From positions 1,579,501-1,643,500 of the forward strand of contig NZ_CP023317.1 of NCBI RefSeq assembly GCF_009497655.1: a DNA stretch of 64,000 nt, given 5' to 3'. The notes beneath the pieces were generated by a model. That model saw only the letters and a program-made list of their open reading frames with translations. It was not told the origin of the DNA and did not search any database. This document shows, piece after piece, positions 10,166 through 41,217 of this stretch. This DNA is from Priestia megaterium (GTDB lineage Bacteria; Bacillota; Bacilli; Bacillales; Bacillaceae_H). The translations under genes were made by a program, and so were the position numbers. The number at the start of each line of letters is the position of its first letter. The first letter of the stretch is position 1.

Positions 10166-10203
10166 TGAAACCGGTTGACATGCAAGGTTGACTAACTTAA
10201 TAT
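10166..10203 (+). promoter_or_regulatory. levR promoter with AACCGGTT operator
   Basis: TGAAACCGGTTGACAT at 10166-10181 is identical to the two sucrose-operon copies and supplies TTGACA (10175-10180) as -35. TAATAT (10198-10203) follows after a 17-bp spacer. The operator overlaps the -35 exactly as at the sucrose operon. This indicates common repression. Confidence 0.75.
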
Positions 10204-10220
10204 ATTTACATATAATGGCT

Positions 10221-10233
10221 TGAAACGCTTTCA
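10221..10233 (+). promoter_or_regulatory. cre-like site in the levR leader
   Basis: TGAAACGCTTTCA, a 13-bp near-palindrome with a perfect right half (CGCTTTCA) of the CcpA site. It lies about 10-25 bp past the predicted transcription start. Confidence 0.5.
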
Positions 10234-10351
10234 TAGATTAGTATGACATGATGGTACTTATAGGTGAAATAACTTGTAGTAGTAGGGAATGTCTCATTTC
10301 TTTGAAAGAGAAACTTCCGATCGTGAACTGAAAATAAAGAAGGTGCTTCTA

Positions 10352-13138
10352 ATGAAACGAATTGATAAGGTATACAATCAGCTGTTGAGTAATTTTCAGG
10401 AGTTTACAGAAGTGGAACTTTTACATAAACAAGGAAGCTCAGCGATTGAAATTGCTGAACAATTAGATTTAGAGAGATCTAATGTAAGTCTTGAACTGAA
10501 CAAACTTGTCCGCATGCAAAAAGTAATTAAAATTAAAATGTTCCCCGTTCGCTACGCTCCGCTAGAGATTGTCGAAACCATTTTTCGTCAAAAGTGGGAT
10601 ACGAATAAGATGGAAGTGGAAAAACTAGAGCAGCTATCTAATGGGGGAAAAGAAGAAGCACTTTCTGCTAATCCTTTTGAATTAATGATTGGAGCCACAG
10701 GCAGTTTGAAAAAATCGATTTCTCAAGCAAAAGCTGCTGTTCTTTACCCGCCCAATGGGTTACATATGCTGCTATTAGGTCCCACGGGATCAGGCAAATC
10801 TCTTTTTGCAAAACGAATCTATCAATTTGCTATATATTCAGAGAGGTTAAAAACAGGGGCCCCGTTCATTACCTTTAACTGCGCTGATTATTACCATAAT
10901 CCTCAATTACTTCTTTCTCAGTTATTTGGTCATAAGCAAGGGAGTTTCACTGGAGCAACTGAAAGTAAAGTAGGTTTAGTAGAACAAGCAAATGAAGGCA
11001 TTCTCTTTATGGATGAAATACACCGGCTTCCTCCTGAAGGTCAAGAAATGCTTTTTTACCTCATTGATCAAGGTACGTACAATCGTCTAGGGGAAACAGA
11101 TCATAAGCGAATGTCTAAAGTATTAATTATTTGTGCTACAACTGAAAATCCCGGTTCAGCCTTACTGCAAACTTTCTTAAGAAGAATTCCGATGACTATC
11201 CATATTCCGTCATTAGAAGAGCGATCTCTCAAAGAAAAGATTCGTCTCACAACGTTTCTTTTAGAACAAGAAGCTAAACGAATTAATAAAAAGCTAAGTG
11301 TCCACATTGATGTATTAAATGCTTTAATCCACACTGAAAAATTCGGGAATGTAGGGCAGTTAAAGTCCAATGTACAGCTCGTGTGCGCACACGGATTTTT
11401 AAATAACCTTGATAGTAAACATATGGTGGAACTTACAGTGAGAGATTTGCCTGATGATATTAAACGAGATTGGATTTCAAATAGTAAAAATATGGAGCGC
11501 AGCAGAAAAATTTCTGAATATGTAAATCTCAAAACGATCATTTCTCCGGCTATGGAGAGCCAAGAAATAAAAATAGAGGAAGACGTATCATTTAATTTAT
11601 ATCAGTTAATAGAAGAAAAAGTAGATGTTTTAACAAAAGAAGGTTTATCTCAAGAAGACATCAATCAATATATTCTTACTGACATTCATTTGAATGTTCG
11701 GAGCTTTTTTAATCAAAAAAATGGCCAGAGTTCTAATTTAATGAAATTCGTAGAAGACGACGTAATTCAGCTTACAAAAGAATTAAAACATTTAGCAGAA
11801 AAAGAATTGAACTGTAAATTTGATCGCAGATTTATTCATTTTTTGAGTATGCATATGGAATCCTTTTTAAAGCGAAAAAAACAAGTAGACGTATTAAATA
11901 CAAAGGAGATAGATGAAATTCGCGAAACGTATCCAAAAGAATATGCGGTAGCCCTGCTTTTTAAAAATCGAATTGAAAAGTGGTTTAACATTGTCGTGCC
12001 AGAAATAGAAGTTATTTATCTCACAATGGTTATTCAATCCATTCGAACGTTAGAAGAAAATAAGCGAGTGGGGATTGTGGTTGCTGCACATGGAAACAGC
12101 ACGGCAACTTCTATGGTAGAAGTGGCTACGGAGCTTTTAGGAAGTACTCCTATTATAGCTATTGATGTGCCTTTGACGGTATCTCCAGTCGAAATTGTAG
12201 ATAGATTAATCCAGGGAATTAAGAAAGTAGATGAAGGAGAAGGCGTATTAATGCTTGTAGACATGGGCTCGCTTGCCATGTTAGAAAGCAAGTTAGAACA
12301 AAAAACAGGGACTAAGATTAAAACAATCAGCAACGTGACGACGTCTATGGTGTTAGACACCGTTAGAAAAGTAAATTATTTAGACTTAAATTTATATGCC
12401 ATATTTGATTCGGTGCAAAAAGACTTTATGGAATTTATAGATAAGCAGCAGCATGTGTTTGGGAAAAAGAAAGCCCTTGTTTCTATTTGTACAACAGGAA
12501 GCGGTACAGCAAAACAATTAGAAAAAATCTTAACGATTATTTCACGGAAAGTATCTCAAGAGCCTATTAAAATTCTAACCGTTTCTTCTATTAAATTAGC
12601 AGCAAACATTCGGGAAATTCAAAAAGAATATGAAATTGTCGCAACAGCAGGTACCAAAAACCCTAAGATTGATGCGCCTCATGTATCACTAGAAGTCCTT
12701 ATTGAAGGGCAGGGAGAGCGAATACTTCAACAGGCAATTACAAAAGAAACGATACGCTATGATGAGGAGAAGACTGAAGGGAATATTGTAGTGCGTGAAC
12801 TTTGCGAAGAAAACTTACGAAAGTACCTTCTATTTATTAATCCGTATCTCATAAGTGAAATTCTGTTAGAGTGGTTAAATCACGTACAAGATGAGTTAGA
12901 AATGAAATTAAGCAACACCGTTATGATTCGAATTGTGATGCATACAGCCTTTGCTTTAGAAAGAATGATAAAAAACGAACCTCTTGCTTTTCCGGAGGAT
13001 GAAGAAATCACTCCTCAGTTAGAAAATATTTATCAAAAAACGGAAAAAACATTACAAGCCGTCGAAAAAAAGCTTAAACTTACCTTAACAAGAGATGAAA
13101 AATTATTTATTGCCACCATTTTTGCGGATGAAATGTAA
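10352..13138 (+). CDS. levR: LevR, sigma54-dependent PTS-regulated activator of the levanase operon
   Basis: 928-residue activator. Order: N-terminal winged helix-turn-helix (about 1-80); AAA+ domain with Walker A GPTGSGKS (143-150), sigma54 loop GSFTGA (197-202) and Walker B FMDEIH; PRD1; EIIA-Man-like domain with His580 in AAHGNS; EIIB-Gat-like domain with Cys713; PRD2 with His864. His580 and His864 correspond, with a constant offset of five, to B. subtilis LevR His585 (activating, HPr-dependent) and His869 (inhibitory, EIIB-Lev-dependent). An ATG at 10289 would add 21 residues, but AAGAAGGTG six bases before 10352 favours this start. It activates the -24/-12 promoter at 13337. Unlike B. 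subtilis, its own promoter appears controlled by the sucrose repressor. Confidence 0.95.
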   Translation: MKRIDKVYNQLLSNFQEFTEVELLHKQGSSAIEIAEQLDLERSNVSLELNKLVRMQKVIKIKMFPVRYAPLEIVETIFRQKWDTNKMEVEKLEQLSNGGKEEALSANPFELMIGATGSLKKSISQAKAAVLYPPNGLHMLLLGPTGSGKSLFAKRIYQFAIYSERLKTGAPFITFNCADYYHNPQLLLSQLFGHKQGSFTGATESKVGLVEQANEGILFMDEIHRLPPEGQEMLFYLIDQGTYNRLGETDHKRMSKVLIICATTENPGSALLQTFLRRIPMTIHIPSLEERSLKEKIRLTTFLLEQEAKRINKKLSVHIDVLNALIHTEKFGNVGQLKSNVQLVCAHGFLNNLDSKHMVELTVRDLPDDIKRDWISNSKNMERSRKISEYVNLKTIISPAMESQEIKIEEDVSFNLYQLIEEKVDVLTKEGLSQEDINQYILTDIHLNVRSFFNQKNGQSSNLMKFVEDDVIQLTKELKHLAEKELNCKFDRRFIHFLSMHMESFLKRKKQVDVLNTKEIDEIRETYPKEYAVALLFKNRIEKWFNIVVPEIEVIYLTMVIQSIRTLEENKRVGIVVAAHGNSTATSMVEVATELLGSTPIIAIDVPLTVSPVEIVDRLIQGIKKVDEGEGVLMLVDMGSLAMLESKLEQKTGTKIKTISNVTTSMVLDTVRKVNYLDLNLYAIFDSVQKDFMEFIDKQQHVFGKKKALVSICTTGSGTAKQLEKILTIISRKVSQEPIKILTVSSIKLAANIREIQKEYEIVATAGTKNPKIDAPHVSLEVLIEGQGERILQQAITKETIRYDEEKTEGNIVVRELCEENLRKYLLFINPYLISEILLEWLNHVQDELEMKLSNTVMIRIVMHTAFALERMIKNEPLAFPEDEEITPQLENIYQKTEKTLQAVEKKLKLTLTRDEKLFIATIFADEM

Positions 13139-13156
13139 AAATCATATGATAATCCC

Positions 13157-13198
13157 AAGAAACTAGTTTAATTTATATGCCGCTAGTTTCTTTTTTTA
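13157..13198 (+). terminator. Terminator after levR
   Basis: Stem AAGAAACTAG (13157-13166) / CTAGTTTCTT (13183-13192) followed by a T-run. Confidence 0.8.
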
Positions 13199-13220
13199 TC
13201 CCATTTTTTAAATAACAGAA

Positions 13221-13284
13221 AAACCTGTATTAAAACGCATGACGTTTTGATACAGGTTTATTTATTTTAAGAAACCTGTATCAA
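13221..13284 (+). promoter_or_regulatory. Candidate LevR upstream activating sequence
   Basis: AAACCTGTAT followed by A-rich sequence occurs three times. Copies at 13221 (plus) and ending at 13259 (minus) form a long inverted repeat, and a third direct copy AAACCTGTATCAA lies at 13272-13284. Centres are near -122 and -85 relative to the start expected from the -24/-12 promoter. That matches the -125 to -75 position known for LevR sites in B. subtilis. The inverted pair could also act as a second levR terminator. Confidence 0.55.
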
Positions 13285-13313
13285 CAACAAAGAAAAAGGT
13301 ATTGAAAAATAAA

Positions 13314-13327
13314 TGAAAGCGCTTAAT
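13314..13327 (+). promoter_or_regulatory. cre site of the levanase operon
   Basis: TGAAAGCGCTTAAT matches 12 of 14 cre positions and lies at about -48 to -35 of the sigma54 promoter. In B. subtilis the levanase-operon cre sits at the same place. Confidence 0.65.
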
Positions 13328-13336
13328 ACTCTTTGT

Positions 13337-13352
13337 TGGCACGATACTTGCA
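13337..13352 (+). promoter_or_regulatory. Sigma54 (-24/-12) promoter of levDEFG-sacC
   Basis: TTGGCACGATACTTGCA at 13336-13352 is a perfect match to the TGGCAC-N5-TTGC sigma54 (SigL) consensus, 40 bp before levD. Confidence 0.92.
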
Positions 13353-13392
13353 ATAAATAAGTGTAGAACGTAAAAGAGAGGAGCAAGTGTAC

Positions 13393-13833
13393 ATGATTTC
13401 AGTCATTATTAGTGGGCATGGTGATTTCGCACCAGCATTAGAAGGGTCTTCCAAAATGATATTTGGTGAAGAGAATCACGTAGTAGCCGTACCTTTTCTA
13501 AAAGGAGAGGGTATCCAAACGCTTGAAGCAAAATATAAGCAAGCATTAGAGGAAATGCCCTTAGAAAATGAAGTGCTTTTTCTAGTCGATATTTTTGGAG
13601 GTACACCTTACAATGCGGCTACTCCCTATATCCTTAAAAACAAAACAGCGGATATGGTATCCGGAGTTAACTTGCCTATGTTATTAGAAGTGTTAGCCAT
13701 GAGGGAACACGTTACATTAAAAGAGATGCTAGGGAGATTAAAGCAAGTGAATGAAGAAAGTTTTCAAGTGTGCAGTGAACATTTGGAGAAAGTCCAGCAA
13801 GCAAACCAAATCGGAGAGGATGGATTATTATGA
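13393..13833 (+). CDS. levD: Fructose PTS EIIA, mannose class
   Basis: 146-residue cytosolic phosphocarrier that takes phosphate from HPr and passes it to LevE. The active-site His9 lies in ISVIISGHGDFA, and the fold is confirmed by VDIFGGTPYNAA. A GTG at 13387 precedes the ATG, but GAGGAG is nine bases before the ATG. First gene of the sigma54-driven operon; its stop overlaps levE by four bases, indicating translational coupling. Its phosphorylation state also feeds back on LevR in the B. subtilis system. Confidence 0.93.
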   Translation: MISVIISGHGDFAPALEGSSKMIFGEENHVVAVPFLKGEGIQTLEAKYKQALEEMPLENEVLFLVDIFGGTPYNAATPYILKNKTADMVSGVNLPMLLEVLAMREHVTLKEMLGRLKQVNEESFQVCSEHLEKVQQANQIGEDGLL

Positions 13834-14324
13834 AAATCGTTTTAGCAAGAATTGATGACCGCTTTATTCACGGGCAGGTATTAACAAGATGGATCAAAAC
13901 AAATGCAGCAGATCGAATTATCATTGTTTCAGATGAGGTGGCAGCGGATGAAATGCGAAAAACGCTTATTCTTTCTGTGGCTCCTTCGAATGTAAAAGCA
14001 AGTGCTGTCTCAATTTCTAAAATGACAAAAGCATTTCACAGCCCTCGTTATCAGGATACAACAGCCATGCTGCTGTTTGAAAGTCCTGCAGATATTGTAG
14101 CTCTTGTTCAAGCTGGAGTGCCTATCGAGACAGTAAACGTAGGCGGCATGCGTTTTGCTAATGACCGAAAACAAATCACAAAATCTGTAAGCGTTACCGA
14201 AAAAGATATCGATGCTTTTGAGAAACTGCAGGAACTAGGCGTAAAGCTTGAGCTGCGCCAATTACCCTCAGATTCTAGCGAAAATTTTATTCAACTACTG
14301 AGAAATGAAACAAAAATCAAATAA
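13830..14324 (+). CDS. levE: Fructose PTS EIIB, mannose class
   Basis: 164-residue EIIB of the mannose/sorbose class. His14 in RIDDRFIHGQV is the phosphorylated residue, and the NVGGMRFANDRKQI block is characteristic. It passes phosphate to incoming fructose through LevFG and, by analogy, to LevR PRD2 as negative feedback when fructose is absent. ATGA overlap with levD. Confidence 0.93.
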   Translation: MKIVLARIDDRFIHGQVLTRWIKTNAADRIIIVSDEVAADEMRKTLILSVAPSNVKASAVSISKMTKAFHSPRYQDTTAMLLFESPADIVALVQAGVPIETVNVGGMRFANDRKQITKSVSVTEKDIDAFEKLQELGVKLELRQLPSDSSENFIQLLRNETKIK

Positions 14325-14336
14325 GGAGATGAGTTT

Positions 14337-15146
14337 ATGTCTTCCATACAAATTATTTTATTATTAGTCATTGCAGCGGTAACTGGCATCGCAAGCGTAT
14401 TGGACGAAGGGCAATCCCATCGTCCTCTCATTGCCTGCACGTTAGTAGGCTTGGTGCTTGGAGATTTAAAAACGGGCATTATTTTAGGCGGAACGCTGGA
14501 ATTAATGGCTCTTGGATGGATGAATGTTGGATTGGCGATGGCACCTGATACGGCTATTGCTTCTGTTATTTCAACTATTTTGGTTATCACAGCTGGTCAG
14601 GGGATTGGTGAAGGCATTGCGGTAGCTATAGCTTTAGCAGCTGCAGGGCAAGTACTCACCATTTTTGTTCGTACCATCACAGTATTTTTAATTCATCGAG
14701 CTGATAAGTACGCGGAAGAAGGGAACTTTAAAGGAATTGAAATTATGCATATTACTGCTATGGGTTTTCAGGCTCTCCGCGTTATGATTCCAACGTTAAT
14801 TGTTACATTAATCAGCGTAAGCGCCGTGCAAACTTTCCTCGGAAATATTCCGGAAGTTATTACAAAAGGTCTGCAAATTGGGGGAGGCATTATCGTGGTC
14901 GTAGGGTATGCCATGGTTATCAATATGATGAACATTCCTCATTTAAAACCTTTTTTCTATATCGGGTTCTTATTAGCGGCATTTACAGGGTTTAACCTGG
15001 TAGGATTTGGGGCGTTAGGTCTTTGTTTAGCCCTTCTTTATCAGCAAGTAATGCAGCAGCGAAATCAAATGCAGCCGGCAGGCGTTCCAGCAGCTACAGG
15101 GAGCGAACAAGTATATGATGATGACGATGATGATTTAGATGCCTAA
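14337..15146 (+). CDS. levF: Fructose PTS EIIC membrane subunit, mannose class
   Basis: 269-residue membrane permease subunit with about seven hydrophobic helices. The PTS-EIIC motif includes ACTLVGLVLGDLKTGIILGG and LELMALGWMNVG. AAGGAG eight bases before the ATG. The extreme C-terminus carries a run of Asp (DDDDDDLDA) that would lie in the cytoplasm; its role is unknown. Confidence 0.93.
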   Translation: MSSIQIILLLVIAAVTGIASVLDEGQSHRPLIACTLVGLVLGDLKTGIILGGTLELMALGWMNVGLAMAPDTAIASVISTILVITAGQGIGEGIAVAIALAAAGQVLTIFVRTITVFLIHRADKYAEEGNFKGIEIMHITAMGFQALRVMIPTLIVTLISVSAVQTFLGNIPEVITKGLQIGGGIIVVVGYAMVINMMNIPHLKPFFYIGFLLAAFTGFNLVGFGALGLCLALLYQQVMQQRNQMQPAGVPAATGSEQVYDDDDDDLDA

Positions 15147-15172
15147 ACGGCGAACTTAAGGGAGGGATAGAG

Positions 15173-16000
15173 ATGGAAAATGAAAAAAGATTAACGAAAA
15201 AAGACATCTTTAGCATGTTTATTCGCTCGAATTTTTTACTCGGTTCATTTAACTTTGAGCGTGTTCAGGCAATGGGCTACTGTTATGTTATGATTCCAGC
15301 AATTAAACGTTTATACGGACCAGGGGCACAGCGAAATGCAGCATTAAAGCGACATTTAGAATGGTTCAATACACATCCATGGATTTCCGCACCTATATTC
15401 GGCGTCACGGCAGCAATGGAAGAAGAAATGGCAAATAAAAAAGATTTTGATGAAAAAGCCATCAGCGGAATGAAAATTGGATTAATGGGACCGCTTGCTG
15501 GCGTAGGAGACCCTATTTTCTGGGGAACGCTGCGACCAGTTCTTGCGGCACTAGGCGCATCTCTTGCGTTAGGCGGGAATATTGCCGGGCCACTGCTGTT
15601 TTTCATCTTAATTAATGCCATTCGATTAAGTACAAAATATTATGGATTAAAATATGGTTATTTAAAAGGAACAGAAATTTTAAAAGATTTAGTAGGCAAT
15701 CGAATTCAAAAACTGACGGAAGGTGCATCCATTTTAGGACTCTTCGTAATGGGAGCATTGGTTTCGAAATGGACCACTATTAATATACCAGTGGTTGTTT
15801 CTAGGATCAAAGATGATTCTGGTAAAGTTGTCGTGAAAACCGTGCAAGACGTACTCGACAGTATTTTACCGGGACTGCTTCCTTTAGCGCTAACTTTATT
15901 AGTAGCATGGATGCTTCGAAAAGGTACAAATCCGCTGCTTATTATTTTCGGTATTTTCTTAATCGGTATAGGAGGTTATTGGATCGGCTTTTTAGGCTGA
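15173..16000 (+). CDS. levG: Fructose PTS EIID membrane subunit, mannose class
   Basis: 275-residue EIID. Family blocks are NFERVQAMGYCYVMIPAIKR, FNTHPWISAPIFG and MGPLAGVGDPIFWGTLRP, followed by C-terminal membrane helices. It forms the transport complex with LevF. AAGGGAGGG-type ribosome binding site. Levanase follows after an 87-bp gap with no terminator, so it is in the same transcript. Confidence 0.93.
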   Translation: MENEKRLTKKDIFSMFIRSNFLLGSFNFERVQAMGYCYVMIPAIKRLYGPGAQRNAALKRHLEWFNTHPWISAPIFGVTAAMEEEMANKKDFDEKAISGMKIGLMGPLAGVGDPIFWGTLRPVLAALGASLALGGNIAGPLLFFILINAIRLSTKYYGLKYGYLKGTEILKDLVGNRIQKLTEGASILGLFVMGALVSKWTTINIPVVVSRIKDDSGKVVVKTVQDVLDSILPGLLPLALTLLVAWMLRKGTNPLLIIFGIFLIGIGGYWIGFLG

Positions 16001-30608: not shown

Positions 30609-31551
30609 TTACGAAGCTGAATATGTTTTGAGAGCCTCAATCATTAAATTCCAAAATCCGTCTACATCAAGAGTTAAACCGAATTTAGCATTGGGTTTCC
30701 TCCCTGTGACTCCAAGCAAATCAACTGAAGTTGTTCCAGACGTGTATTCTCCGCGTGTTTCTACTACAATATTAACTTCTTTTAGCGTAAATAGTTCTGG
30801 AGCTACACAATAAGCGACGGTCAATACATCGTGAACAGGAGGGCCATTAAATCCAAAGGTTTCTTTATAGGCAGATTTAAAAAATGCTAATAATTCCCCG
30901 ACCTTTTTTGCTACGTTATTATCGATGTTCATGACTTGGTTAATAACGTCATCTGTTGCAACGGCTTGATGCGTAATATCTAACCCCATTACTACGAGTG
31001 GGATGCCGCTATCGAACACTTTTTTAGCCGCTTCTGGGTCTGCCCAAATATTAAACTCAGCCGTTGGCGTCCAGTTCCCGAAGGTTCCACCGCCCATAAG
31101 GATAATCTCTCCAATGTTTTCTTTAATTTCTGGAGCTTTCATTAAAGCTAAGGCAATGTTCGTTAAAGGACCGGTAGGCAAAAGCGTAACGGGATCTTCT
31201 GACTCTTTGACCATTCGTATAATAGTATCTACTCCGTGTTCTTCGCTCCAGCTGCGAGAGAGAGCCGGGAACTCACGACCGTCTAATCCTGAATCTCCGT
31301 GTATACTAGGCGCGTTTTCACGTCTGCGCATCATTCATTGGTTCGCTTGCTCCTTTTGAAACAATCACGTTATGTAACGATACCAAGTCACACACTTTCA
31401 AAGCATTCACCGTCGTTTTTTCAATTTCTGCGTTTCCTGAAACAGTTGTAATCGCTAAAATATCTAATTCCGGTCGTGCGGCAGCTAAAATAATTGCAAT
31501 GGCATCATCATGACCTGGATCACAGTCCATAATAATCTTTCTTTTTTTCAT
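30609..31551 (-). pseudogene. Nucleoside hydrolase (IunH/RihB type) with frameshift
   Basis: Inosine/uridine-preferring nucleoside hydrolase split in two frames. The N-terminal part has the calcium-site motif DCDPGHDDA and runs to ASEPM, then shifts. The C-terminal part continues with RRRENAPSIHGDSGLDG and all later conserved blocks (LPTGPLTNIALAL, GGGTFGNWTP, NIWADPEAA, HDVLTVAYC). The shift coincides with a tandem TCAT-TCAT at 31331-31338 (ATGA-ATGA on the coding strand). Removing one 4-bp unit restores a 312-residue protein. The start has AGAGGTG six bases upstream. Everything else is intact, so the lesion is recent or a sequencing error. Confidence 0.85.
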
Positions 31552-31584
31552 TATGATCACCTCTATAGAATGGATAAATTGCTG

Positions 31585-31877: not shown

Positions 31878-31916
31878 TTAATTGGCGTTATTAAATTTTA
31901 AAAAACACCCAATTAA
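31878..31916 (+). repeat. Inverted repeat 100 bp upstream of the sigma54 promoter (candidate activator site)
   Basis: TTAATTGG (31878-31885) and CCAATTAA (31909-31916), extended by GTT/AAC inside. It is centred about -100 from the start expected for the 31972 promoter, the usual distance of a sigma54 activator site. A T-A-rich relative with GGTT/AACC ends lies near -110 of the opposite-strand promoter (40921-40947). Confidence 0.4.
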
Positions 31917-31971
31917 CACCTAAAACACATTTTAATTATATCATAATTCAGAAAATTAAACGGTTATACGT

Positions 31972-31987
31972 TGGCACGAAAATTGCT
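31972..31987 (+). promoter_or_regulatory. Sigma54 (-24/-12) promoter of the cyanophycin operon
   Basis: TTGGCACGAAAATTGCTT (31971-31988) matches the TGGCAC-N5-TTGC consensus perfectly, about 120 bp before the permease gene. Confidence 0.9.
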
Positions 31988-32108
31988 TGTACTATATGTG
32001 AAGAACACAAGAGAAAGGAGCAATGTGTAGCTGCAGATAAGGAAGCTGCTTTTAAAGAACGAGATGTCTGTTTAAAGTTACTATTTCACAATGAAGGGGA
32101 GAAGAAGA

Positions 32109-33530
32109 ATGAGTGAACCGCAAAAGGAAATGAGTTCATTAAATCAGGTACGGAAAAAAGAGAGAAAAATAAACGTTTTTGCTTTATTGTTAGGCTTTCT
32201 TGTGATTGCTACTATTTTAACGTATATCTTGCCAGCCGGAGAATACGCACGTGTAGAAGTAGACGGACGAACAACGGTAGATCCTCAGTCGTTTAAATGG
32301 ATTGGTTCTACACCTGTTGGATTCTTTGATATGGTCAAAGCGATACATACAGGAATGGTAGAAGGAGCCGACATTATCTTTTTTGTATTAATTATCGGCG
32401 GTTTCTTTGGTGTACTAAGCGCTACGGGGACAGTAGATGTATTGATTACAACGATGGCTAAAAAGCTTGCTACTAGAGAAAAATTATTAATTCCTGTTAT
32501 GATGCTATTTTTTGCGGTAGGCGGTTCTTTAATGGGGATGGCGGAAGAAACGCTAGCTTATATTCCTCTTTTAATTCCGCTGGCACTTGCTCTTGGATTC
32601 GATGCATTAACAGGGACTGCTATTGTTTTAATTGGCGCATCGGCTGGTTTTACTACGGCCGTTATGAATCCATTTACAGTAGGTGTTGCACAAGGAGTAG
32701 CAGAGCTTCCTATGTTTTCTGGAATGGGCTTTCGTCTCATCTTATTCGTAGTTGTTTATGCTGTTTCAGTATGGTTTGTCTACCGATATGCGATGAAAGT
32801 GAAAAGAAGTCCTTCTATAGGAACATACGGAAAATACAGCATAACTAATGCACATAAACTTTTAAATTCTGATGCGAAGTTAACTAGAAAGCATAAATGG
32901 ATTATGGCAGCATTTCTTGTTAACTATGTAATTCTTGCTTTTGGCGTTATTAAGTATAAGTGGTACATTACTGAAATTGCCTCTCTGTTTGTGATTTTGA
33001 CAGTGGTGATTGGGATTATTGGAAGGCTCTCTGTTGAAAATACGGTTAAGTCGTTTACAAACGGGGCAGCAGCGCTAGTTGGAGGAGCGCTTGTTATCGG
33101 AGTTTCTCGCGCAGTTCTTGTTGTTTTAAATGAAGGTCATATTGTAGACCCTATGCTTCATCAAGTATCTGGAGCGATTCAACATATTCCGGGATATTTA
33201 AGCGTCATCGGAATCTACAACTTCCAAGCGCTGATTCATCTTATTTTAGCATCTGGAACGGGTCATGCGATGCTGACGATGCCAATCATGACGCCTCTTG
33301 CAGATTTGCTTGATATTACGCGACAAACGGCAGTATTATCTTTTTCTTTTGCAGACGGCATCGGAAACATTATTTTCCCGACGGCTGGAACGTTGATGGC
33401 TGGTTTAGCAATTGCGGGGATTTCATGGACAAAGTGGGCGAAATGGGTGCTTCCGCTAGTCCTTATTCAATATGTGATTGGTCTAATAGCCGTTGTGATT
33501 GCTTATTTTATCAATTACGGACCATTTTAA
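32109..33530 (+). CDS. YfcC-family permease (DcuC/AbgT-like), probable dipeptide or amino-acid importer
   Basis: 473-residue membrane protein with about 11-12 helices. The family region GSTPVGFFDMVKAIHTGM, then IIFFVLIIGGFFGVLSATG, and GHAMLTMPIMTPLADLL identify the YfcC group. The start at 32109 has AAGGGGAGAAG eight bases upstream; an ATG at 32091 overlaps that site. First gene after the sigma54 promoter and followed by a beta-aspartyl dipeptidase and secreted cyanophycinase. It is therefore inferred to import beta-Asp-Arg dipeptides or their products. Substrate not proven. Confidence 0.85.
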   Translation: MSEPQKEMSSLNQVRKKERKINVFALLLGFLVIATILTYILPAGEYARVEVDGRTTVDPQSFKWIGSTPVGFFDMVKAIHTGMVEGADIIFFVLIIGGFFGVLSATGTVDVLITTMAKKLATREKLLIPVMMLFFAVGGSLMGMAEETLAYIPLLIPLALALGFDALTGTAIVLIGASAGFTTAVMNPFTVGVAQGVAELPMFSGMGFRLILFVVVYAVSVWFVYRYAMKVKRSPSIGTYGKYSITNAHKLLNSDAKLTRKHKWIMAAFLVNYVILAFGVIKYKWYITEIASLFVILTVVIGIIGRLSVENTVKSFTNGAAALVGGALVIGVSRAVLVVLNEGHIVDPMLHQVSGAIQHIPGYLSVIGIYNFQALIHLILASGTGHAMLTMPIMTPLADLLDITRQTAVLSFSFADGIGNIIFPTAGTLMAGLAIAGISWTKWAKWVLPLVLIQYVIGLIAVVIAYFINYGPF

Positions 33531-33577
33531 GAGATAGAAAAATGTAATTTGTAAGTTGAGCTTACTAGGAGGAATAG

Positions 33578-34753
33578 ATGTTGTTAACCTTAATCAAAAA
33601 CGCAGAAGTATATGCACCACAGCACTTAGGAAAAAAAGATATATTGCTTGCAGACAGCAAAATCATCCTTATAAAAGATTGTATTGATCATGTAAATACG
33701 TCCATTCCTATTGGTGTTGTAGATGCCGCTAATCACATTATAGCTCCAGGCTTCATTGACTCACATGTTCATATTATTGGCGGAGGAGGAGAAGGTGGAT
33801 ATAAAACACGCACTCCTGAACTAATGTTAACCGATGCAACGACTGCCGGTGTTACAACTATTGTAGGTGTACTTGGAACAGACGGTACAACAAGAAGAAT
33901 GGAAAACCTTCTGGCCAAAGCAAGAGGGTTAGAAGAAGAAGGGATCAGCTGCTTCATTCACACAGGTTCCTATCAAATACCGGTAAAAACGTTAACTAAT
34001 AGCATTGAAGAAGATCTTATTTTAATTGATAAAATTATCGGAGTAGGTGAAATTGCCATTTCCGACCACCGCTCTTCTGAACCGACATTTGAAGAACTGG
34101 TGAAGGTGGCTTCCGCTGCCCGCAATGGAGGGATTTTATCAGGGAAAGCCGGAATATTAGAGATTCACGTAGGAGACGGAGAACGAAAATTATCTTTATT
34201 GAATCAAATCGTAGATAAAACAGACCTGCCAATTCGTCAGTTTCACCCTACACATATTAATAGAAATGAAGAGCTGTTTAAAGAAGGAACTCAATTTGCA
34301 AAGCGAGGCGGCTACGTAGATTTTACGACTAGTACGATCCCTCACTTTTTAGAAGAAGGCGAAGTTAAGTGCAGCAAAGGGTTACGCATCATGCTGGAAG
34401 AGAAAGTGGCGATTGACAGCATTACGTTTTCATCCGATGGAAACGCGAGCCTGCCGTTTTTTGATGATAACGGAGATTATAAAGGTCTTCAAGTTGGAAA
34501 AGTGTCTTCTTTATTTCAAGAAGTACGAGATGCAGTATTAGAGGAATCAGTACCGTTAGAAACAGCTCTTCAAGTCATTACTTCTAATCCTGCCAAAGTA
34601 TTAAAACTGTCCAATAAAGGGCATATTCAACCCGGAAAAGATGCAGATTTAGTCCTTTTAGACAAAGAGACGCTAACAATTAAAACGGTTTTTGCTCAAG
34701 GTAAAGTAATGGTAAAAGACGGTGTCCCTGTTGTGAAAGGAACGTTTGAATAA
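33578..34753 (+). CDS. iadA: Isoaspartyl (beta-aspartyl) dipeptidase
   Basis: 391-residue binuclear zinc amidohydrolase of peptidase family M38. Metal motif DSHVHIIGGGGEGG, later ligands in the HPTHINR block and SSDGNASLP. It hydrolyses dipeptides with a beta-aspartyl bond, including beta-Asp-Arg, the product of cyanophycinase. CTAGGAGGAATAG provides the ribosome binding site. Lying between permease and cyanophycinase, it is expected to perform the second step, yielding Asp and Arg. Length agrees with E. coli IadA (390). Confidence 0.93.
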   Translation: MLLTLIKNAEVYAPQHLGKKDILLADSKIILIKDCIDHVNTSIPIGVVDAANHIIAPGFIDSHVHIIGGGGEGGYKTRTPELMLTDATTAGVTTIVGVLGTDGTTRRMENLLAKARGLEEEGISCFIHTGSYQIPVKTLTNSIEEDLILIDKIIGVGEIAISDHRSSEPTFEELVKVASAARNGGILSGKAGILEIHVGDGERKLSLLNQIVDKTDLPIRQFHPTHINRNEELFKEGTQFAKRGGYVDFTTSTIPHFLEEGEVKCSKGLRIMLEEKVAIDSITFSSDGNASLPFFDDNGDYKGLQVGKVSSLFQEVRDAVLEESVPLETALQVITSNPAKVLKLSNKGHIQPGKDADLVLLDKETLTIKTVFAQGKVMVKDGVPVVKGTFE

Positions 34754-34846
34754 CAGGTTTTAGATATCATTTATCAAAAGTATCGCGGAAAGGATACGAG
34801 CTAATTAGAGAAGGGTATTAAAATTTGCGTGGAAAGGATCTTTCAA

Positions 34847-37399
34847 ATGAAAAAGAAACTGGTTTCATGTCTCATCAGCTTTACATTACTTTCTTCGTTG
34901 AGTACACCCCTGCTTGCAAAAGCACAAGAAAATACTGAAGGCATTAAAGGCAGCCTTGTTATTGCAGGCGGAGGTGTAGGAACATCCAATCAAGATATAT
35001 ATGAAAAATTTCTCTTGCTTGCTGGGGGAAAAGAAAAAGCCAAGGTAGGGATTATTCCAGCTGCTAGCACAACGCTGCAGTCTTCTGAAAAGTTTAAGAA
35101 AGACCTCGTGAAATACGGAGTAAACTCAGATTCTATTCAAATTCTTCCCGTTTCCAATCACGATTTTTCTGACACACAAAAAGATGAATCGACTTGGAAG
35201 AATCAAGTGAACGACAAGAAGTTATCCCGTACGATTAAAGGACTAACGGCAGTTTGGTTTGTTGGAGGAGACCAAACAAAAATTGTGGATTCCCTTCGTC
35301 AAAATAATGGAAACGATTCTGAAGCGTTAAAAGCTATCTGGGATATATATCGTAAGGGAGCAGTTATCGGAGGTACAAGTGCAGGAGCTGCAATTATGAG
35401 TGACGTCATGATTACAGGAGGAGACAGTCTAGGAGCTTTAAAAGAAAGTATAGGAAACAAGGAAAATAAACATGTAAACGAAAACCAACACAATAAGAAA
35501 GAATACGAGCCTCTATCAGTTCAAAAAGGGTTGGGATTTTTCCAACACGGCATAATTGATCAGCATATGGATGAACGAGCACGACTTGGGCGACTTGCAG
35601 TAGCTGCGTATAATGCTGAACGCGACAAAGAAAAAAACTTTGCATACGGTGTAGACGAAGATACTGCTATGGTCGTTAACAATAAAGATCAAAAGGTTGA
35701 AGTCGTTGGAAGAAGCGGAGTAGCTGTATTAGATATGAGCCAAGCTAAGCTTATATCTAAGCAAAAAGTGCGTTCAGGCTTAGAGAACATAAAAGTCAGT
35801 TACTTATCTCCTGGAGATAAAATTAACTATCATTTAAAATCATTTGAATTTCCAAACGATAAAGTAGAAACGAAGGGGTTTGAATATTATTCCTTTAACG
35901 CACTGCCTGCTACGGGTGTTTTTACACCGTATGGAAGATTAAAGGCTTATTTATCATATTCTTTCGTTGATAATAAATCAATGAAATCTGCTAACAGCTA
36001 TGTTTATGACAGTAAAGGGTCTGGATACGAAATTGCTTTCCAAAAGGATAATGACACAAACGGCTACTGGCGGTATACTGATGGACAAAAAGATGATTAT
36101 TCCATTGTAAATGTAAGAATGGACATTACACCTAAAACCGTCAAATTTCAACCGGATAAAAAAACTAGTTTAACGTATAAAAAACCTACTTTTTCTTCAC
36201 CTGAAAGTCCTGTATACGACGAGATTAAAGGTAACCTCTTAATTGCAGGAGGAGCGCTTGGAAGCAGTAATTCAAGCGTGTATAGCAAGTTTATTACTCT
36301 TGCAGGAGGAAAGCAGGCCAAAATAGGGATTGTTCCTGCAGCGAGTACTAAGTTCGACTCCTCTAATCAGTTTAAAAGTGATTTAGTTAAATACGGAGTG
36401 AAGGCAGAAAATATAGAGATTTTACCTATTTCAAACCACGACTTTAAAGGAACTTCTGAAGATGAGTTGACTTGGAAAACAAATATGAACAGTGATAAAC
36501 TAGCGCAAAAAGTTAAAGGGCTAACAGGCATTTGGTTTGTAGGAGGAGATCAAACCTTGATTACGGGCTCGTTGCGGAATGAAAATGGTTCGGACTCAAA
36601 AGTTTTACAAGCCATATGGCATACGTATAAAAACGGGGCAGTACTTGGCGGTACGAGTGCCGGAGCGGCGATTATGAGTAATACTATGCTCGCTGGCGGA
36701 GATAGCTACGGAGCTCTTTCGTACGGATTTACAGACACATACGATGATATGACTCAGCAAGAAGGCGGTCCTGCTTATTTGGAAAAAGGCCTTGGTTTTT
36801 TTCAATACGGTCTGGTAGATCAGCATTTTGACAACAAAGCAAGACTGGGACGCCTTATTGCAACAGCATATGAAAAAGGAAATAAAAATCAGCTTTCTTA
36901 CGGCATCGATGAAGATACTGCTATGGTGGTAAACAATAAAGAAAAACAAATAGAAGTTGTTGGAAGAGGCGGTATTACGCTAGTTGACTTAGCAAAGGTA
37001 CAGGCAAATGACAAATTTCCGAGTGATTACAAAAATATTCTTATCTCTTGTATTACGCCAGGTGATAAAGTAAATATCACAACAAAAGAAATCGTCATAA
37101 ACCCAGCTAAAACATCTACTAGAAAAAATGAATACTACAGTGAAAAGGTTGGGCCAAACACGGGTCTTTTCTCTCCGCACGGTGTATTAAGGAAATTTTT
37201 AGCTTGCGATCTTATCGATAACGCTCAGAGCAAAGAAATAAAGAGCTATGCGTTTAACCAAGGCAAAGGTTTTGAGCTTACCTTCAGAAAAAGCCCTGAA
37301 AGCAATGGCTATTGGGCTTATACCGACGGTCAAAAAGACGATTACTCTATTGTGAAAGTAGCCTTAGATATCAAACCAATAAACGTAGACATTAAATGA
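34847..37399 (+). CDS. Secreted tandem-domain cyanophycinase (two S51 domains fused)
   Basis: 850 residues with signal peptide (about 1-26, ending LAKAQ). Two homologous peptidase S51 halves: residues about 34-440 and 457-850. Each keeps the full catalytic set: GGTSAGA Ser178 and Ser604, DQH His240 and His660, DEDTAMVV Glu271 and Glu688 (the Ser/His/Glu triad of Synechocystis CphB). Each half ends with the same extra module (YWxYTDGQKDDYSIV). Cyanophycinase releases beta-Asp-Arg from cyanophycin. GTG at 34829 is less likely than ATG 34847 behind AAAGGA. Third gene of the sigma54 operon. Other bacterial cyanophycinases are single-domain or use the domain as a dimer. Confidence 0.92.
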   Translation: MKKKLVSCLISFTLLSSLSTPLLAKAQENTEGIKGSLVIAGGGVGTSNQDIYEKFLLLAGGKEKAKVGIIPAASTTLQSSEKFKKDLVKYGVNSDSIQILPVSNHDFSDTQKDESTWKNQVNDKKLSRTIKGLTAVWFVGGDQTKIVDSLRQNNGNDSEALKAIWDIYRKGAVIGGTSAGAAIMSDVMITGGDSLGALKESIGNKENKHVNENQHNKKEYEPLSVQKGLGFFQHGIIDQHMDERARLGRLAVAAYNAERDKEKNFAYGVDEDTAMVVNNKDQKVEVVGRSGVAVLDMSQAKLISKQKVRSGLENIKVSYLSPGDKINYHLKSFEFPNDKVETKGFEYYSFNALPATGVFTPYGRLKAYLSYSFVDNKSMKSANSYVYDSKGSGYEIAFQKDNDTNGYWRYTDGQKDDYSIVNVRMDITPKTVKFQPDKKTSLTYKKPTFSSPESPVYDEIKGNLLIAGGALGSSNSSVYSKFITLAGGKQAKIGIVPAASTKFDSSNQFKSDLVKYGVKAENIEILPISNHDFKGTSEDELTWKTNMNSDKLAQKVKGLTGIWFVGGDQTLITGSLRNENGSDSKVLQAIWHTYKNGAVLGGTSAGAAIMSNTMLAGGDSYGALSYGFTDTYDDMTQQEGGPAYLEKGLGFFQYGLVDQHFDNKARLGRLIATAYEKGNKNQLSYGIDEDTAMVVNNKEKQIEVVGRGGITLVDLAKVQANDKFPSDYKNILISCITPGDKVNITTKEIVINPAKTSTRKNEYYSEKVGPNTGLFSPHGVLRKFLACDLIDNAQSKEIKSYAFNQGKGFELTFRKSPESNGYWAYTDGQKDDYSIVKVALDIKPINVDIK

Positions 37400-37440
37400 G
37401 AAAAAAGTAATTCAATGCATCTAGCACTTTAGCATATCGT

Positions 37441-37472
37441 GCCTCCACCCATTAAAGTGGAGGCGCTTTTTT
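37441..37472 (+). terminator. Terminator of the cyanophycin operon
   Basis: GCCTCCAC / GTGGAGGC hairpin followed by GC and six T residues. Confidence 0.85.
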
Positions 37473-37611
37473 CTACTTATTTTTATTTACAAAAGGGACA
37501 AACGTCCGCTAGATGAAATGCACAGCAAAGTATAAAATGATAGGTATAGTATTCCAAGACTAATCTCTGAAGGCAAGTCAAGTTAAAGGCCTGTAGAAAG
37601 GTGTCCATACG

Positions 37612-39657
37612 ATGAAAAAGAAATTAGTTTTAATAACAGGAAGCAAGCAAACTAGAATCATTTTACACAATCAATTAAAAGAGTTGCTAGGCGATTATAT
37701 TTTTATTGAATGCTTTGCAATTGATGAAGAATTACCAAGAAAAATTGATGGAGATGTTGTTCTTTATTCATCAGAGAGTATATATCATGAAATGAAGAAC
37801 AGATTAGACGTTCAGCATGCACATGAAATTGTAGGAAATAGAACAATTCATCATAAGCATATAAATGAATTACTGAAAATCCCTGCCCATACAAAAGTAT
37901 TAATTGTAAATGATGACGATAAAGAAACTCTTAAATTAATAGAATCTCTTTATCAAGTAGGCATTAATCATGTTCAGTTTATCCCTTTTAAAAAGCAAAA
38001 GACCTATTACGAAGGTGTTGAAATTGCAGTTTCTCCAGGTGAGGTTCACTTGTGTCCCCCATACGTAAAGCATGTAATTGATATAGGCGTTAGACTTTTT
38101 GACATGGCGACCATTTTTGAACTTATAAAATCATTCGGTTTTAATCAGTCTAATCATTCAATTATTTGGGATCGCTATTTGCGAAACATCATTGTGCTGC
38201 AAAAAAAACTAATAGAAGCAGAAGGGAAAATGAAAGAACTTCACCTTCATGTAAAGAGTATTGTAAACGTAGTAGAAGATGGTATTCTTGCCGTGGATTT
38301 TAATAGAAAAATTACGTTATTCAATAAAAGGTTAGAATCACTGTTCCAGCTAGCTTCTTCCGATGCTATAGATCATGAGATTCAAAGCGTAATTTCTAAC
38401 AAAGGCCTTGTGGAGTTTATTATATCGTCCGATGAGAAAAGTCAGTACTTTAACATAAATGGGTACGAAATGGTTATCTATAAGTCGATGATTGAGAAAA
38501 GCAATACTACTGTAGCAACGTTTAAAAGTGTTAATCAAGCTGTTGAAATAGAAGGAAAAGCGCAGTCAGAACTTAGAAAAAACGGATTTTCTGCTAAGTA
38601 TAACTATCAAGATATTATAGGAGAACACCCAGCTTTGCTTAAAACGATTGAAATTTCCCGGAAAATGGCTGCCACTGAGTATCCTATTTTGATTCAAGGA
38701 GAAACCGGTACAGGAAAAGAGCTGTTTGCTCAGGCTATCCACAATCATTCTACACGTAAAAATGGACCGTTTCTTGCCGTAAATTGCAGTGCCATGACCG
38801 ATACATTACTAGAAAGTGAGCTGTTTGGGTACGAAGAAGCCAGCTTTACAGGAGCGCAGAAAGGCGGCAAAAAAGGGCTGTTTGAGAGCGCTGATAAAGG
38901 TACAATCTTTCTAGATGAAATTGGTGATATCAGCCCGCGTTTACAAACTCAGCTTTTAAGGGTGCTTCAAGAAAAAGAAATTAGGCGGGTAGGAGGTACA
39001 AGAGTCATTCCGATTAATGTAAGAATCATAGCAGCCACTCACAATAATTTACTACATAAAATGAAAGAAGGTCTGTTTCGAGAAGATCTGTACTATCGTT
39101 TACATGTATTATCTTTAACGATTCCTCCTTTAAGATATAGAAGAACCGATATTCCTTTACTGATTCATCATTTTATGTCCAAATCGAAAACGTGGACGCA
39201 TATCCATCCAGAAGCGATGAAGCTGCTTATCGAACATGAATGGTTAGGAAATATAAGAGAATTAAAAGGCGTAATTGAGTATTTACTTACCGTCTGCGAT
39301 GACAACGAAGTGAAAGCAAAAGACGTAGAGTATAGGCTTAGTAGTCAAAAAGAAGATCATTCTTTGTATGAAGTTGAAAATGAATCGGTTGACTTAATCG
39401 AACTTCAAGAAAATCGTGCCCTGTTAGAAACGATAAAACAGTGTAATGATACAGGAAAAGCAGCAAGCAGAAAGTGGATTACGCAGCATTTAAAAGGCTT
39501 TACTCTTACAGAACAGCAGGTGAGAAATCGTTTGGATCTACTAGAAGAAAAAGAGTATATTATAAAACGCAGAGGCAGAGCAGGAACAAAAATAACAGAA
39601 AAAGGACTGCATTATCTATATCATTTAAAAACAAAACAGCATTTAATCAATCCTTGA
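37612..39657 (+). CDS. Sigma54-dependent activator, likely regulator of the cyanophycin genes
   Basis: 681-residue enhancer-binding protein. Order: N-terminal sensory region (about 1-190, PrpR-N-like receiver of small ligands); PAS (about 205-320, VEDGILAVDFNRKI); AAA+ domain with Walker A GETGTGKE (363-370), sigma54 loop ASFTGA (410-415, consensus GAFTGA) and Walker B FLDEIGD; C-terminal winged helix-turn-helix (about 600-681) instead of the usual Fis type. AAAGGTG precedes the ATG. It lies between two S51 transcription units that both have -24/-12 promoters, so it is inferred to activate both. Ligand might be beta-Asp-Arg or arginine. Confidence 0.88.
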   Translation: MKKKLVLITGSKQTRIILHNQLKELLGDYIFIECFAIDEELPRKIDGDVVLYSSESIYHEMKNRLDVQHAHEIVGNRTIHHKHINELLKIPAHTKVLIVNDDDKETLKLIESLYQVGINHVQFIPFKKQKTYYEGVEIAVSPGEVHLCPPYVKHVIDIGVRLFDMATIFELIKSFGFNQSNHSIIWDRYLRNIIVLQKKLIEAEGKMKELHLHVKSIVNVVEDGILAVDFNRKITLFNKRLESLFQLASSDAIDHEIQSVISNKGLVEFIISSDEKSQYFNINGYEMVIYKSMIEKSNTTVATFKSVNQAVEIEGKAQSELRKNGFSAKYNYQDIIGEHPALLKTIEISRKMAATEYPILIQGETGTGKELFAQAIHNHSTRKNGPFLAVNCSAMTDTLLESELFGYEEASFTGAQKGGKKGLFESADKGTIFLDEIGDISPRLQTQLLRVLQEKEIRRVGGTRVIPINVRIIAATHNNLLHKMKEGLFREDLYYRLHVLSLTIPPLRYRRTDIPLLIHHFMSKSKTWTHIHPEAMKLLIEHEWLGNIRELKGVIEYLLTVCDDNEVKAKDVEYRLSSQKEDHSLYEVENESVDLIELQENRALLETIKQCNDTGKAASRKWITQHLKGFTLTEQQVRNRLDLLEEKEYIIKRRGRAGTKITEKGLHYLYHLKTKQHLINP

Positions 39658-39668
39658 TGTGCGTAAGG

Positions 39669-39698
39669 AAGGGAAACTTTACTGATCAAGCTTCCCTT
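39669..39698. terminator. Terminator between convergent genes
   Basis: AAGGGAA...CTT / AAG...TTCCCTT hairpin followed by T-rich sequence, between the activator and the convergent cyanophycinase. Confidence 0.7.
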
Positions 39699-39716
39699 TT
39701 CTTATTCATTTACCGT

Positions 39717-40793
39717 TTACGGCTGATTTCCGCCGTAAACTTTTCCTGTAGAAGAAGTAATAACACCGCTGTTTACGTTTAAAGTATAAGCTAATCCTCC
39801 AGAACCTGTCCAAGTGGAAAGATTAAAAGTGCTGCCATTAAATAATTTATAGATAGAAATATTATTAAACGTCAGCGGCTGGCCGCTTGCACAAGTGGTA
39901 GGAGCCATATTCGTTTTAGCTAGATAAACAGCTGCATTTGTAGAGCCCCGCTGTGTTACGACCTTAGCTGAACCATCTTTTTCTACCAACAGTGCTGACT
40001 GTTCATTAACAGCAATCCCTTTTGCGCTTGTTCCAGTTTCTTCTCCATCTTTAATATTACGTGCAAGAAAGGTTAAAAAGCGTCCCATTCTATCTCGTTG
40101 TTCAAAATGGGTGTCTGTTTGAATGTTGTTGTTATGAGGTGTTTGAATCAAATAATCTGTAAAGGAAATAAGAGAACTATAAGGATTGTTTAGCGCTGTT
40201 TTAGAATCTAAAGTTGTAGAGCCTGCTGAGATAGAGTCGTAAATGTGATCCCCTTGAATCATAGTACCAGCACTTGTTCCTCCAAAAGGAATGCCTTGAT
40301 TAATACGATTATTTAATGCTGTAAGAGCGGGAGACCCTTCTAAAAAATCTACATAATCAGCTTGATTGCCTCCAGCAAAAAAGATGCCTTCTGCTTTGTT
40401 AATCTTATCTATTAAAGAAGAGTCTGAACCTGCTCTTATTAAATCATCGACGACAATTGTGCTAACAGAGTTAAGAGGCTTACCTATGCTTTTTGCTAGG
40501 TCGTAGATATAAGAGTTATAGGCATCAGTACCCGTCGCTCTTATAACTAAGAAATCTCCGCCGTTTGCCTTTTGAATCATCCATTTGAACGCTTCATCTA
40601 CATCGATGCTTCCACCCATATAGACTTGTCCAAAGCTTGTACTAGTCGCTTTGTCTGCAGTACTTCCGACTTGATAAAGTGTATAAGGTGCAGATGCAGC
40701 AGAAGCTGAAATGGGCAGTAAAAGAGATGCTGCGAGAACAGCACCAGTAATGACCTGCTTTTTAATACTTTTCTTGCGTTTAACTTTTTTCAT
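39717..40793 (-). CDS. Secreted cyanophycinase, single S51 domain
   Basis: 358 residues with a clear signal peptide (basic start KKVKRKKSIKK, hydrophobic core, SASAAS cleavage near 33). Triad by motif: Ser174 in GGTSAGT, His229 in DTHFEQRDRMGRF, Glu264 in AVNEQSALLV. It belongs to the extracellular cyanophycinase type (CphE-like), clearly diverged from the tandem protein. The ATG at 40793 has a perfect AAAGGAGGAG; the frame upstream is non-coding. Own sigma54 promoter. B. megaterium strain BAC19 has been reported to degrade cyanophycin extracellularly, which fits. Confidence 0.9.
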   Translation of the reverse strand: MKKVKRKKSIKKQVITGAVLAASLLLPISASAASAPYTLYQVGSTADKATSTSFGQVYMGGSIDVDEAFKWMIQKANGGDFLVIRATGTDAYNSYIYDLAKSIGKPLNSVSTIVVDDLIRAGSDSSLIDKINKAEGIFFAGGNQADYVDFLEGSPALTALNNRINQGIPFGGTSAGTMIQGDHIYDSISAGSTTLDSKTALNNPYSSLISFTDYLIQTPHNNNIQTDTHFEQRDRMGRFLTFLARNIKDGEETGTSAKGIAVNEQSALLVEKDGSAKVVTQRGSTNAAVYLAKTNMAPTTCASGQPLTFNNISIYKLFNGSTFNLSTWTGSGGLAYTLNVNSGVITSSTGKVYGGNQP

Positions 40794-40832
40794 AAAGTTC
40801 TCCTCCTTTAGTAAGTGTTCATAGATGAACAT

Positions 40833-40848
40833 GCAAGTTTTATACCAA
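40833..40848 (-). promoter_or_regulatory. Sigma54 (-24/-12) promoter of the single-domain cyanophycinase
   Basis: Minus strand TTGGTATAAAACTTGCAT (40848 to 40831) has GG and GC at the invariant positions with exact spacing, 40 bp before the start codon. The -24 box TGGTAT deviates from TGGCAC. Confidence 0.7.
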
Positions 40849-41217
40849 CTTATTAAACAGCTGAAAAGCTGTGAAAAAAGAGGTCTTTTGAAAAAAACAC
40901 GGGTGATATAGGTTCTTTATGGGTTCTTATTAAATTGCTTTATAACCAAAAATGACAAGAAGAACTCTAACTTGGATGCCTAATAGTGAAAGGGAAATAG
41001 TAAAGGATATATTTTAAAAGTCCATACCTCATTGAAAAATAACCTTTAAAAACTTAAAATTATAATAGAAAGGAAAAACAAGGATAAAAAGAAGAGCTGT
41101 CCGCAATAGCGACCTATTTATCAAACAGACCTTCATTCTATCAATATCTTCATCTCTTAAACGTTTTCCACCAGCATTTCTACGCAGAAAAAATTATACA
41201 TGAGAGGATCTATCAAA
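40849..41217. other. Divergent intergenic region
   Basis: AT-rich, no ORF. Contains the direct repeat GGTTCTTTAT / GGTTCTTAT (40911 and 40922) inside a GGGTT...AACC dyad (40921-40947) about 110 bp upstream of the minus-strand sigma54 promoter, plus CAGCTGAAAAGCTG near 40860. No clear promoter for the MFS gene was found. Confidence 0.4.

Follow-up and report, generated by a model that had tools for sequence, protein, structure and literature searches.

The 9-kb locus of Priestia megaterium described here raises the question of whether its genes form one regulated system for the use of external cyanophycin. The window analysed is a stretch of 64,000 nucleotides of contig NZ_CP023317.1 (positions 1,579,501 to 1,643,500 of the forward strand), which belongs to a genome of 5.24 Mb in three contigs; coordinates below are window positions unless another contig or locus is named. 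The locus contains genes for a DcuC/YfcC-type permease, an IadA beta-aspartyl dipeptidase, a secreted tandem cyanophycinase, a sigma54 activator, i.e. a bacterial enhancer-binding protein (bEBP), and a second secreted enzyme of the S51 family. The original prediction, made from the sequence alone, had placed an activator between two promoters together with S51 enzymes, a dipeptidase and a permease within 9 kb, and all of these were recovered. We consider it quite probable that the locus is a cyanophycin-scavenging regulon in a Priestia strain without a recognisable cyanophycin synthetase.

In the mechanism we propose, the bEBP would respond through its N-terminal region to a signal, for which beta-Asp-Arg or a related beta-aspartyl dipeptide is the likeliest candidate. 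The protein would bind ACC-type repeats 65-77 bp 5' of two -24/-12 promoters and drive sigma54 polymerase at both. Promoter 1 would serve the permease, iadA and tandem cyanophycinase genes up to a terminator-like hairpin, and promoter 2 the second S51 gene. Judging from their family, the two secreted enzymes would cleave external cyanophycin to beta-Asp-Arg, which the permease would import and IadA would split to Asp and Arg inside the cell. The sequence itself shows the gene content, the triads, the promoters, the shared motif, their conservation and the lack of cphA, whereas substrate, inducer, binding, transport and nutritional role are deduced from it.

Permease, dipeptidase and S51 enzymes

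The permease gene (32091-33530, plus strand; likely start ATG 32109, preceded by AAGGGGAGAAG) encodes a protein matching Pfam DcuC with 352 bits and the YfcC equivalog NF008611 with 331.8 bits, the latter under its cut-off of 500. After a gap of 47 bp follows iadA (33578-34753, plus), whose product scored 575.8 bits against TIGR01975 (cut-off 331.25), so that both the dipeptidase and the permease of the original prediction held. By eye IadA has no signal peptide, so cleavage of the dipeptide is expected to be intracellular. The tandem cyanophycinase gene (34847-37399, plus) begins 93 bp downstream of iadA when counted from its likely ATG start at 34847; the open reading frame (ORF) was listed from a GTG at 34829. 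A hairpin of 10 pairs resembling an intrinsic terminator (37439-37466, plus) stands at the end of the operon. A cyanophycinase gene and iadA thus lie within 5 kb of each other, and the cluster includes a transporter gene with a predicted substrate.

The tandem protein scored 327.1 bits against the cyanophycinase family TIGR02069 (cut-off 126.6), and its only PDB sequence relatives at E ≤ 0.001 were three entries, every one named cyanophycinase. Its two S51 domains are 51% identical to each other over 400 alignment columns. Each has a complete Ser-His-Glu triad, namely GTSAG, DQH and VDEDTA in domain 1, read from the translation, and GTSAG, DQH and IDEDTA in domain 2, taken from the alignment. 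For CphB, the passages available from PMC3235067 give Gln101, Asp172, Gln173, Arg178, Arg180 and Arg183 as critical for activity, with Thr at the position of Gln173 in CphEal. By motif, all six are kept in domain 1 of the tandem protein; in domain 2 a Lys in place of Arg178 is the only exception in triad or pocket.

The second S51 gene (39717-40793, minus strand) is convergent to the bEBP gene. Its ORF was listed from 40832, a start which overlaps the -12 element of promoter 2; the ATG at 40793, preceded by AAAGGAGGAG, is the likelier start. The enzyme has the triad GTSAG, DTH and VNEQSA and, by motif and alignment, keeps the critical CphB residues, with Thr at position 173 as in CphEal. The best Foldseek matches of its AlphaFold model (mean predicted confidence, pLDDT, 81.6) were cyanophycinase structures, the top nine being chains of 7uqv, 3en0 and 7uqw with E-values from 1.5e-15 to 2.0e-14. 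The score against TIGR02069 was 79.3 bits, under the cut-off, so that the enzyme has the fold and triad of a cyanophycinase without reaching the curated threshold. Both S51 proteins start with Sec-type leaders, as judged by eye. Of the claim of two secreted S51 cyanophycinases with three intact triads, the triads, the leaders and the assignment of the tandem protein stood, and the family name of the second enzyme was left short of its cut-off.

Promoters, shared motif and regulator

Promoter 1 (31972-31987, plus), with the sequence TGGCACGAAAATTGCT, fits the sigma54 -24/-12 pattern with zero mismatches; only one other such site occurs in the window, at 13337-13352. Among related loci, 49 of 51 permease upstream regions had a -24/-12 site at no more than one mismatch, compared with 7 of 699 background ORF upstreams of the same span, and for perfect sites the counts were 45/51 and 5/699. 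The two permease upstreams without a site at this limit were those of L101 and L119. Large cyanophycinase genes remote from any bEBP also had a perfect sigma54 site in 15 of the 19 loci fetched.

Promoter 2 (40832-40847, minus; TGGTATAAAACTTGCA) is a weak site with two mismatches. Sites at up to two mismatches numbered 31 in the window with 25.7 expected, and since the site was unremarkable when taken alone, relatives were examined. A variant of it, TGGTATAAAA(C/T)TTGC(A/T), recurs 5' of S51 genes in L061-L063, which are of the same genus, and in L079, L083, L086, L089 and L090, while L064 has the perfect site TGGCACGGTACTTGCA 5' of the same gene. This conservation, together with an upstream motif shared with promoter 1, lifts promoter 2 above chance and speaks against reading it as a chance match. 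The two -24/-12 promoters predicted originally are both supported, promoter 1 on its own merit and promoter 2 through its relatives and the motif.

The motif was obtained by expectation maximisation from 32 deduplicated permease upstreams, with the S51 promoters kept out of training, and reads AACCAAAAAGAACC. Measured against 553 background upstreams, 6 of 6 second-enzyme promoters and 15 of 27 cyanophycinase promoters scored above the 99th percentile; of the latter, 19 were above the 95th percentile and 24 above shuffled sequences at 0.05. When retrained on 31 permease upstreams, leaving out the window and its three closest relatives and thus all Priestia loci, the motif had its best match in the 64-kb window 5' of promoter 2 (ACCCATAAAGAACC, 40911-40924, minus, 77 bp 5' of the -24 element) and its third best 5' of promoter 1 (ACCCAATTAACACC, 31907-31920, plus, 65 bp 5' of the -24 element). 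Scores as high were reached by 0.2% and 0.7% of 160-bp window stretches, respectively. The candidate activator-binding region of promoter 1 also contains an apparent inverted repeat, TTAATTGG ... CCAATTAA (31878-31916), read from the sequence. A joint pattern of ACCCNNNNNNMACC, 45-70 bases and TGGYAYNNNNNTTGCW matched the 5.24-Mb genome twice, at these two promoters, and its reversed control not at all; as the two sites themselves served to define the pattern, only the absence of further matches is informative. We infer that the bEBP binds both candidate sites.

The activator gene (37612-39657, plus) encodes a protein of 681 aa with an alpha/beta N-terminal region (approximately residues 1-175), a PAS domain (approximately 205-306), an AAA+ domain and a C-terminal HTH_12 winged helix (model pLDDT 77.5). 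The match to PF00158 (226.9 bits), the Walker motifs GETGTGKE and LDEIGD, and ASFTGA as a variant of the family consensus GAFTGA place it among the bEBPs, in agreement with the predicted sigma54 activator. In the N-terminal region no Pfam match at E ≤ 0.1 was found before residue 213. PAS-containing sensor proteins made up most of the 50 PDB matches listed, the first of which was the TyrR N-terminal domain, and the region is given no family name here. Invariant residues of this region include P142, E144, P149, R161 and T167, and these may mark a ligand site. The N-terminal region is 91% identical to that of the homologue in Priestia aryabhattai B8W22. Because the conserved partner of the regulator is IadA, as set out below, a beta-aspartyl dipeptide is a likelier signal than the cyanophycin polymer. 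In the Priestia relative L062 (9507-14080) an insertion seems to have interrupted the gene: the bEBP frame ends at 457 codons, and its C-terminal part is found some 2.5 kb beyond.

The genome of the window contains two rpoN (sigma54) genes over the curated cut-off, at C1:884258-885547 and C1:4788471-4789739; the operon thus has a -24/-12 promoter in a genome encoding sigma54. The original prediction of one pathway under SigL has the shared upstream motif, the co-occurrence of regulator and enzyme and the sigma54 sites at unlinked cyanophycinases in its favour, and needs correction in this respect: with two rpoN genes, deletion of sigL alone may not abolish sigma54 activity and may not be decisive.

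Distribution among genomes and alternative explanations

A homologue of the bEBP N-terminal region was found in 111 of 397 genomes of the order, and after 13 genomes with only matches at E > 1e-40 had been dropped, 98 remained. TIGR02069 matched at E ≤ 1e-10 in 145 genomes (69 over the cut-off), and IadA was over its cut-off in 175. Cyanophycinases were classed as secreted-size (frame of at least 380 aa, E ≤ 1e-25) or CphB-size (frame of at most 332 aa, E ≤ 1e-55), a classing that covers matches down to about 6e-22; weaker ones, including most of the second-enzyme type, fall outside both classes. The bEBP (E ≤ 1e-40) is present in every one of the 61 genomes that encode a secreted-size cyanophycinase, and none of the 299 genomes without the bEBP has the enzyme. 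At genus level the bEBP occurs in 27 of 135 genera, among them all 16 with a secreted-size cyanophycinase. Among IadA-positive genomes, this enzyme was present in 60 of 97 with the bEBP compared with 0 of 78 without it.

IadA was found in 97 of the 98 bEBP genomes. From the loci listed, a subset was fetched, consisting of 60 with the bEBP and 19 with an unlinked cyanophycinase, in addition to L123, which duplicates L103. Among the 60, IadA was located no more than about 10 kb from the bEBP in 58 cases, the permease in 51 and a cyanophycinase in 30. A second, overlapping set comprised the best 80 of 110 loci, taken with flanks of 8 kb, some of them on short contigs; here the counts were 71, 68 and 27, respectively. 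This set spanned Priestia, Peribacillus, Neobacillus, Gottfriedia, Metabacillus, Fictibacillus, Halobacillus, Rossellomorea, Brevibacillus and Clostridia such as Caloramator. The idea that the regulator mainly tracks cyanophycinase was rejected, IadA being the more constant partner. By gene content, the core partners of the bEBP are IadA and a transporter, with cyanophycinase as a frequent addition that is often unlinked and has its own sigma54 promoter.

As the original prediction had noted for the window, no cyanophycin synthetase is present: the genome-wide search which it suggested found no cphA over the cut-off, the best TIGR02068 match being 143 bits against 850. This result and the secretion-type leaders of both S51 proteins speak against a role of the cyanophycinases in internal storage here. 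In the order, cphA was over the cut-off in 28 of the 397 genomes, and the CphB-size enzyme was found in exactly these 28, of which 15 also have the bEBP. Among the 61 genomes with a secreted-size cyanophycinase, cphA was over the cut-off in 10 and in none of the other 51. Since the CphB-size enzyme tracks cphA and the secreted-size enzyme tracks the bEBP, storage by CphA and CphB appears to be largely distinct from scavenging by the bEBP and its secreted enzyme. This suggests that one regulator gene could mark polymer scavengers apart from polymer storers among Bacillota.

Several observations weigh against a cyanophycin-scavenging regulon. The size and E-value limits of the bEBP and enzyme classes were chosen after the lists had been viewed, and the genomes are related, for which the genus-level comparison is a partial correction. 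The unlinked cyanophycinases of L126, L127, L135 and L140 have no such sigma54 promoter, and 3 of the 27 cyanophycinase upstreams with a promoter fail to exceed shuffles for the motif at 0.05. To these are added the low family score of the second enzyme and the mismatches of promoter 2, which on the pattern count alone is within chance. Moreover, a secreted-size cyanophycinase is absent from 37 of the 98 bEBP genomes, and therefore the role shared by the regulators would be beta-aspartyl dipeptide use. The locus could accordingly be read as a general salvage operon, in which bEBP, permease and IadA process isoaspartyl dipeptides arising from protein damage and the S51 enzymes have other external peptides as substrates or are of minor importance. 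We consider this unlikely, as the secreted-size cyanophycinase is confined to bEBP genomes, the motif and the sigma54 promoter are common to cyanophycinase genes even when unlinked, and the triads and most of the pocket residues of a cyanophycinase are kept.

It is also conceivable that promoter 1 alone is under the bEBP and that the second S51 gene is a bystander transcribed from a SigA promoter. Besides having two mismatches to the -24/-12 pattern, promoter 2 contains TGGTATAAA, which fits the consensus of an extended -10 element. The recurrence of the -24/-12 variant 5' of cyanophycinases in the relatives listed above, the perfect site before the same gene in L064 and the position of the best motif match in the window, 77 bp 5' of promoter 2, make a bystander a rather unlikely explanation. 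The secreted enzymes might, finally, digest another isopeptide polymer, pseudo-cyanophycin or polyaspartate-like, instead of cyanophycin. In favour of this, the nearest solved structure by sequence, 7uqv, bears the PDB title 'pseudo-CphB', and domain 2 of the tandem protein has Lys at the position of Arg178. A literature search for pseudo-cyanophycin listed no paper using this word. Domain 1 and the second enzyme, however, keep the Gln, Asp and Arg residues which the available part of PMC3235067 gives for CphB and CphE, and B. megaterium BAC19 is stated there to degrade cyanophycin, as the original prediction had mentioned. Another polymer thus seems improbable, and cyanophycin remains the preferred substrate for the scavenging regulon.

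Known systems and exchangeable modules

Cyanophycin utilization loci with cyanophycinase, iadA and a transporter are already known (Ben Hania et al. 2017, as cited in PMC10206079), and Sharon and Schmeing (2023, PMC10206079) found such genes clustered in 45 of the 52 genomes that lack cphA but have cyanophycinase together with iaaA or iadA. The locus described here is alike in its clustered cyanophycinase, isoaspartyl dipeptidase and transporter in a genome without cphA1. It differs from them in having a sigma54 activator gene with two motif-bearing -24/-12 promoters, and a two-domain secreted cyanophycinase in addition to a second S51 enzyme; its relatives carry the same promoter type at unlinked cyanophycinase genes. 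The literature searched, which covered few subscription papers, gave no dedicated sigma54 regulator of such loci, and a term search of the main texts, without supplements, of the sigma54 papers PMC4428206, PMC3162934, PMC4524646 and PMC6615313 found no isoaspartyl dipeptidase or cyanophycin target. Our reading puts forward a regulator, together with its cis-elements, for the utilization of external cyanophycin.

An extracellular cyanophycinase, CphEBm, has been purified from B. megaterium BAC19 according to the passages available from PMC3235067. Like CphEBm and CphE of Pseudomonas as described there, the enzymes of the locus are secreted S51 proteins with a Ser-His-Glu triad and a conserved Gln/Asp/Arg pocket, and the second enzyme shares Asp-Thr-His with CphEal. 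The main enzyme differs in being a tandem of two catalytic domains, of roughly 90 kDa assuming cleavage of the leader at residue 26; the second enzyme would have a mature size of about 35 kDa. The CphEBm sequence was not found in those passages, so the tandem protein and the second enzyme are candidates only for the BAC19 activity. In Bacillus thuringiensis, the sigma54-controlled gab and sox clusters (available parts of PMC4279683 and PMC4941409) similarly have an activator linked to a catabolic operon, with the PAS and AAA+ domains stated for GabR. The bEBP of this locus differs in its N-terminal region (1-175) without a Pfam match, its HTH_12 winged helix and its targets, the permease and IadA.

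Exchange of modules was seen across both overlapping locus sets, in which 115 distinct bEBPs were counted by identical C-terminal 300 residues. IadA was present at 104 of these loci, a DcuC-type permease at 95 and a complete-looking peptide ATP-binding cassette (ABC) importer at 10; none had both transporters and 10 had neither. The importer operons had a perfect sigma54 site in 7 of 7 cases with a complete upstream region, and none was seen in the three with a cut upstream region. Since the importer replaces the permease and never accompanies it, the exchange suggests that the DcuC-type permease carries a dipeptide.

At three loci a PF06089 'asparaginase II' protein occupies the position of IadA, between importer and cyanophycinase: L202 (Brevibacillus fluminis, 675-1682), L204 (B. 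massiliensis, 569-1591) and L094 (genome G019, 2018-3028). No IadA over the cut-off was found in these three genomes, and on the basis of these loci only the protein is a candidate isoaspartyl dipeptidase replacing IadA. In L106, IadA is present together with a partial PF06089 match of 26.8 bits. According to Sharon and Schmeing (PMC10206079), Firmicutes have isoaspartyl dipeptidases yet to be discovered, and these loci point to a candidate. A wider reading, which we offer tentatively and hold to be possible rather than probable, is that of a dedicated cyanophycin-scavenging regulon of Bacillota apart from CphA/CphB storage, with one bEBP family sensing beta-Asp dipeptides and with swappable modules, i.e. 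a DcuC-type carrier or a peptide ABC importer and IadA or the PF06089 protein. If it were true, the PF06089 protein would be one of the dipeptidases called undiscovered.

Elsewhere in the window, the perfect -24/-12 site at 13337-13352 lies in a region (8544-16000) with a levansucrase-like gene, a sigma54 activator of LevR/PRD type of 949 aa (10289-13138) and genes resembling those of the phosphotransferase system, named by eye. Just upstream of the locus, a nucleoside hydrolase gene (30609-31560, minus) is split by an apparent frameshift into two overlapping ORFs.

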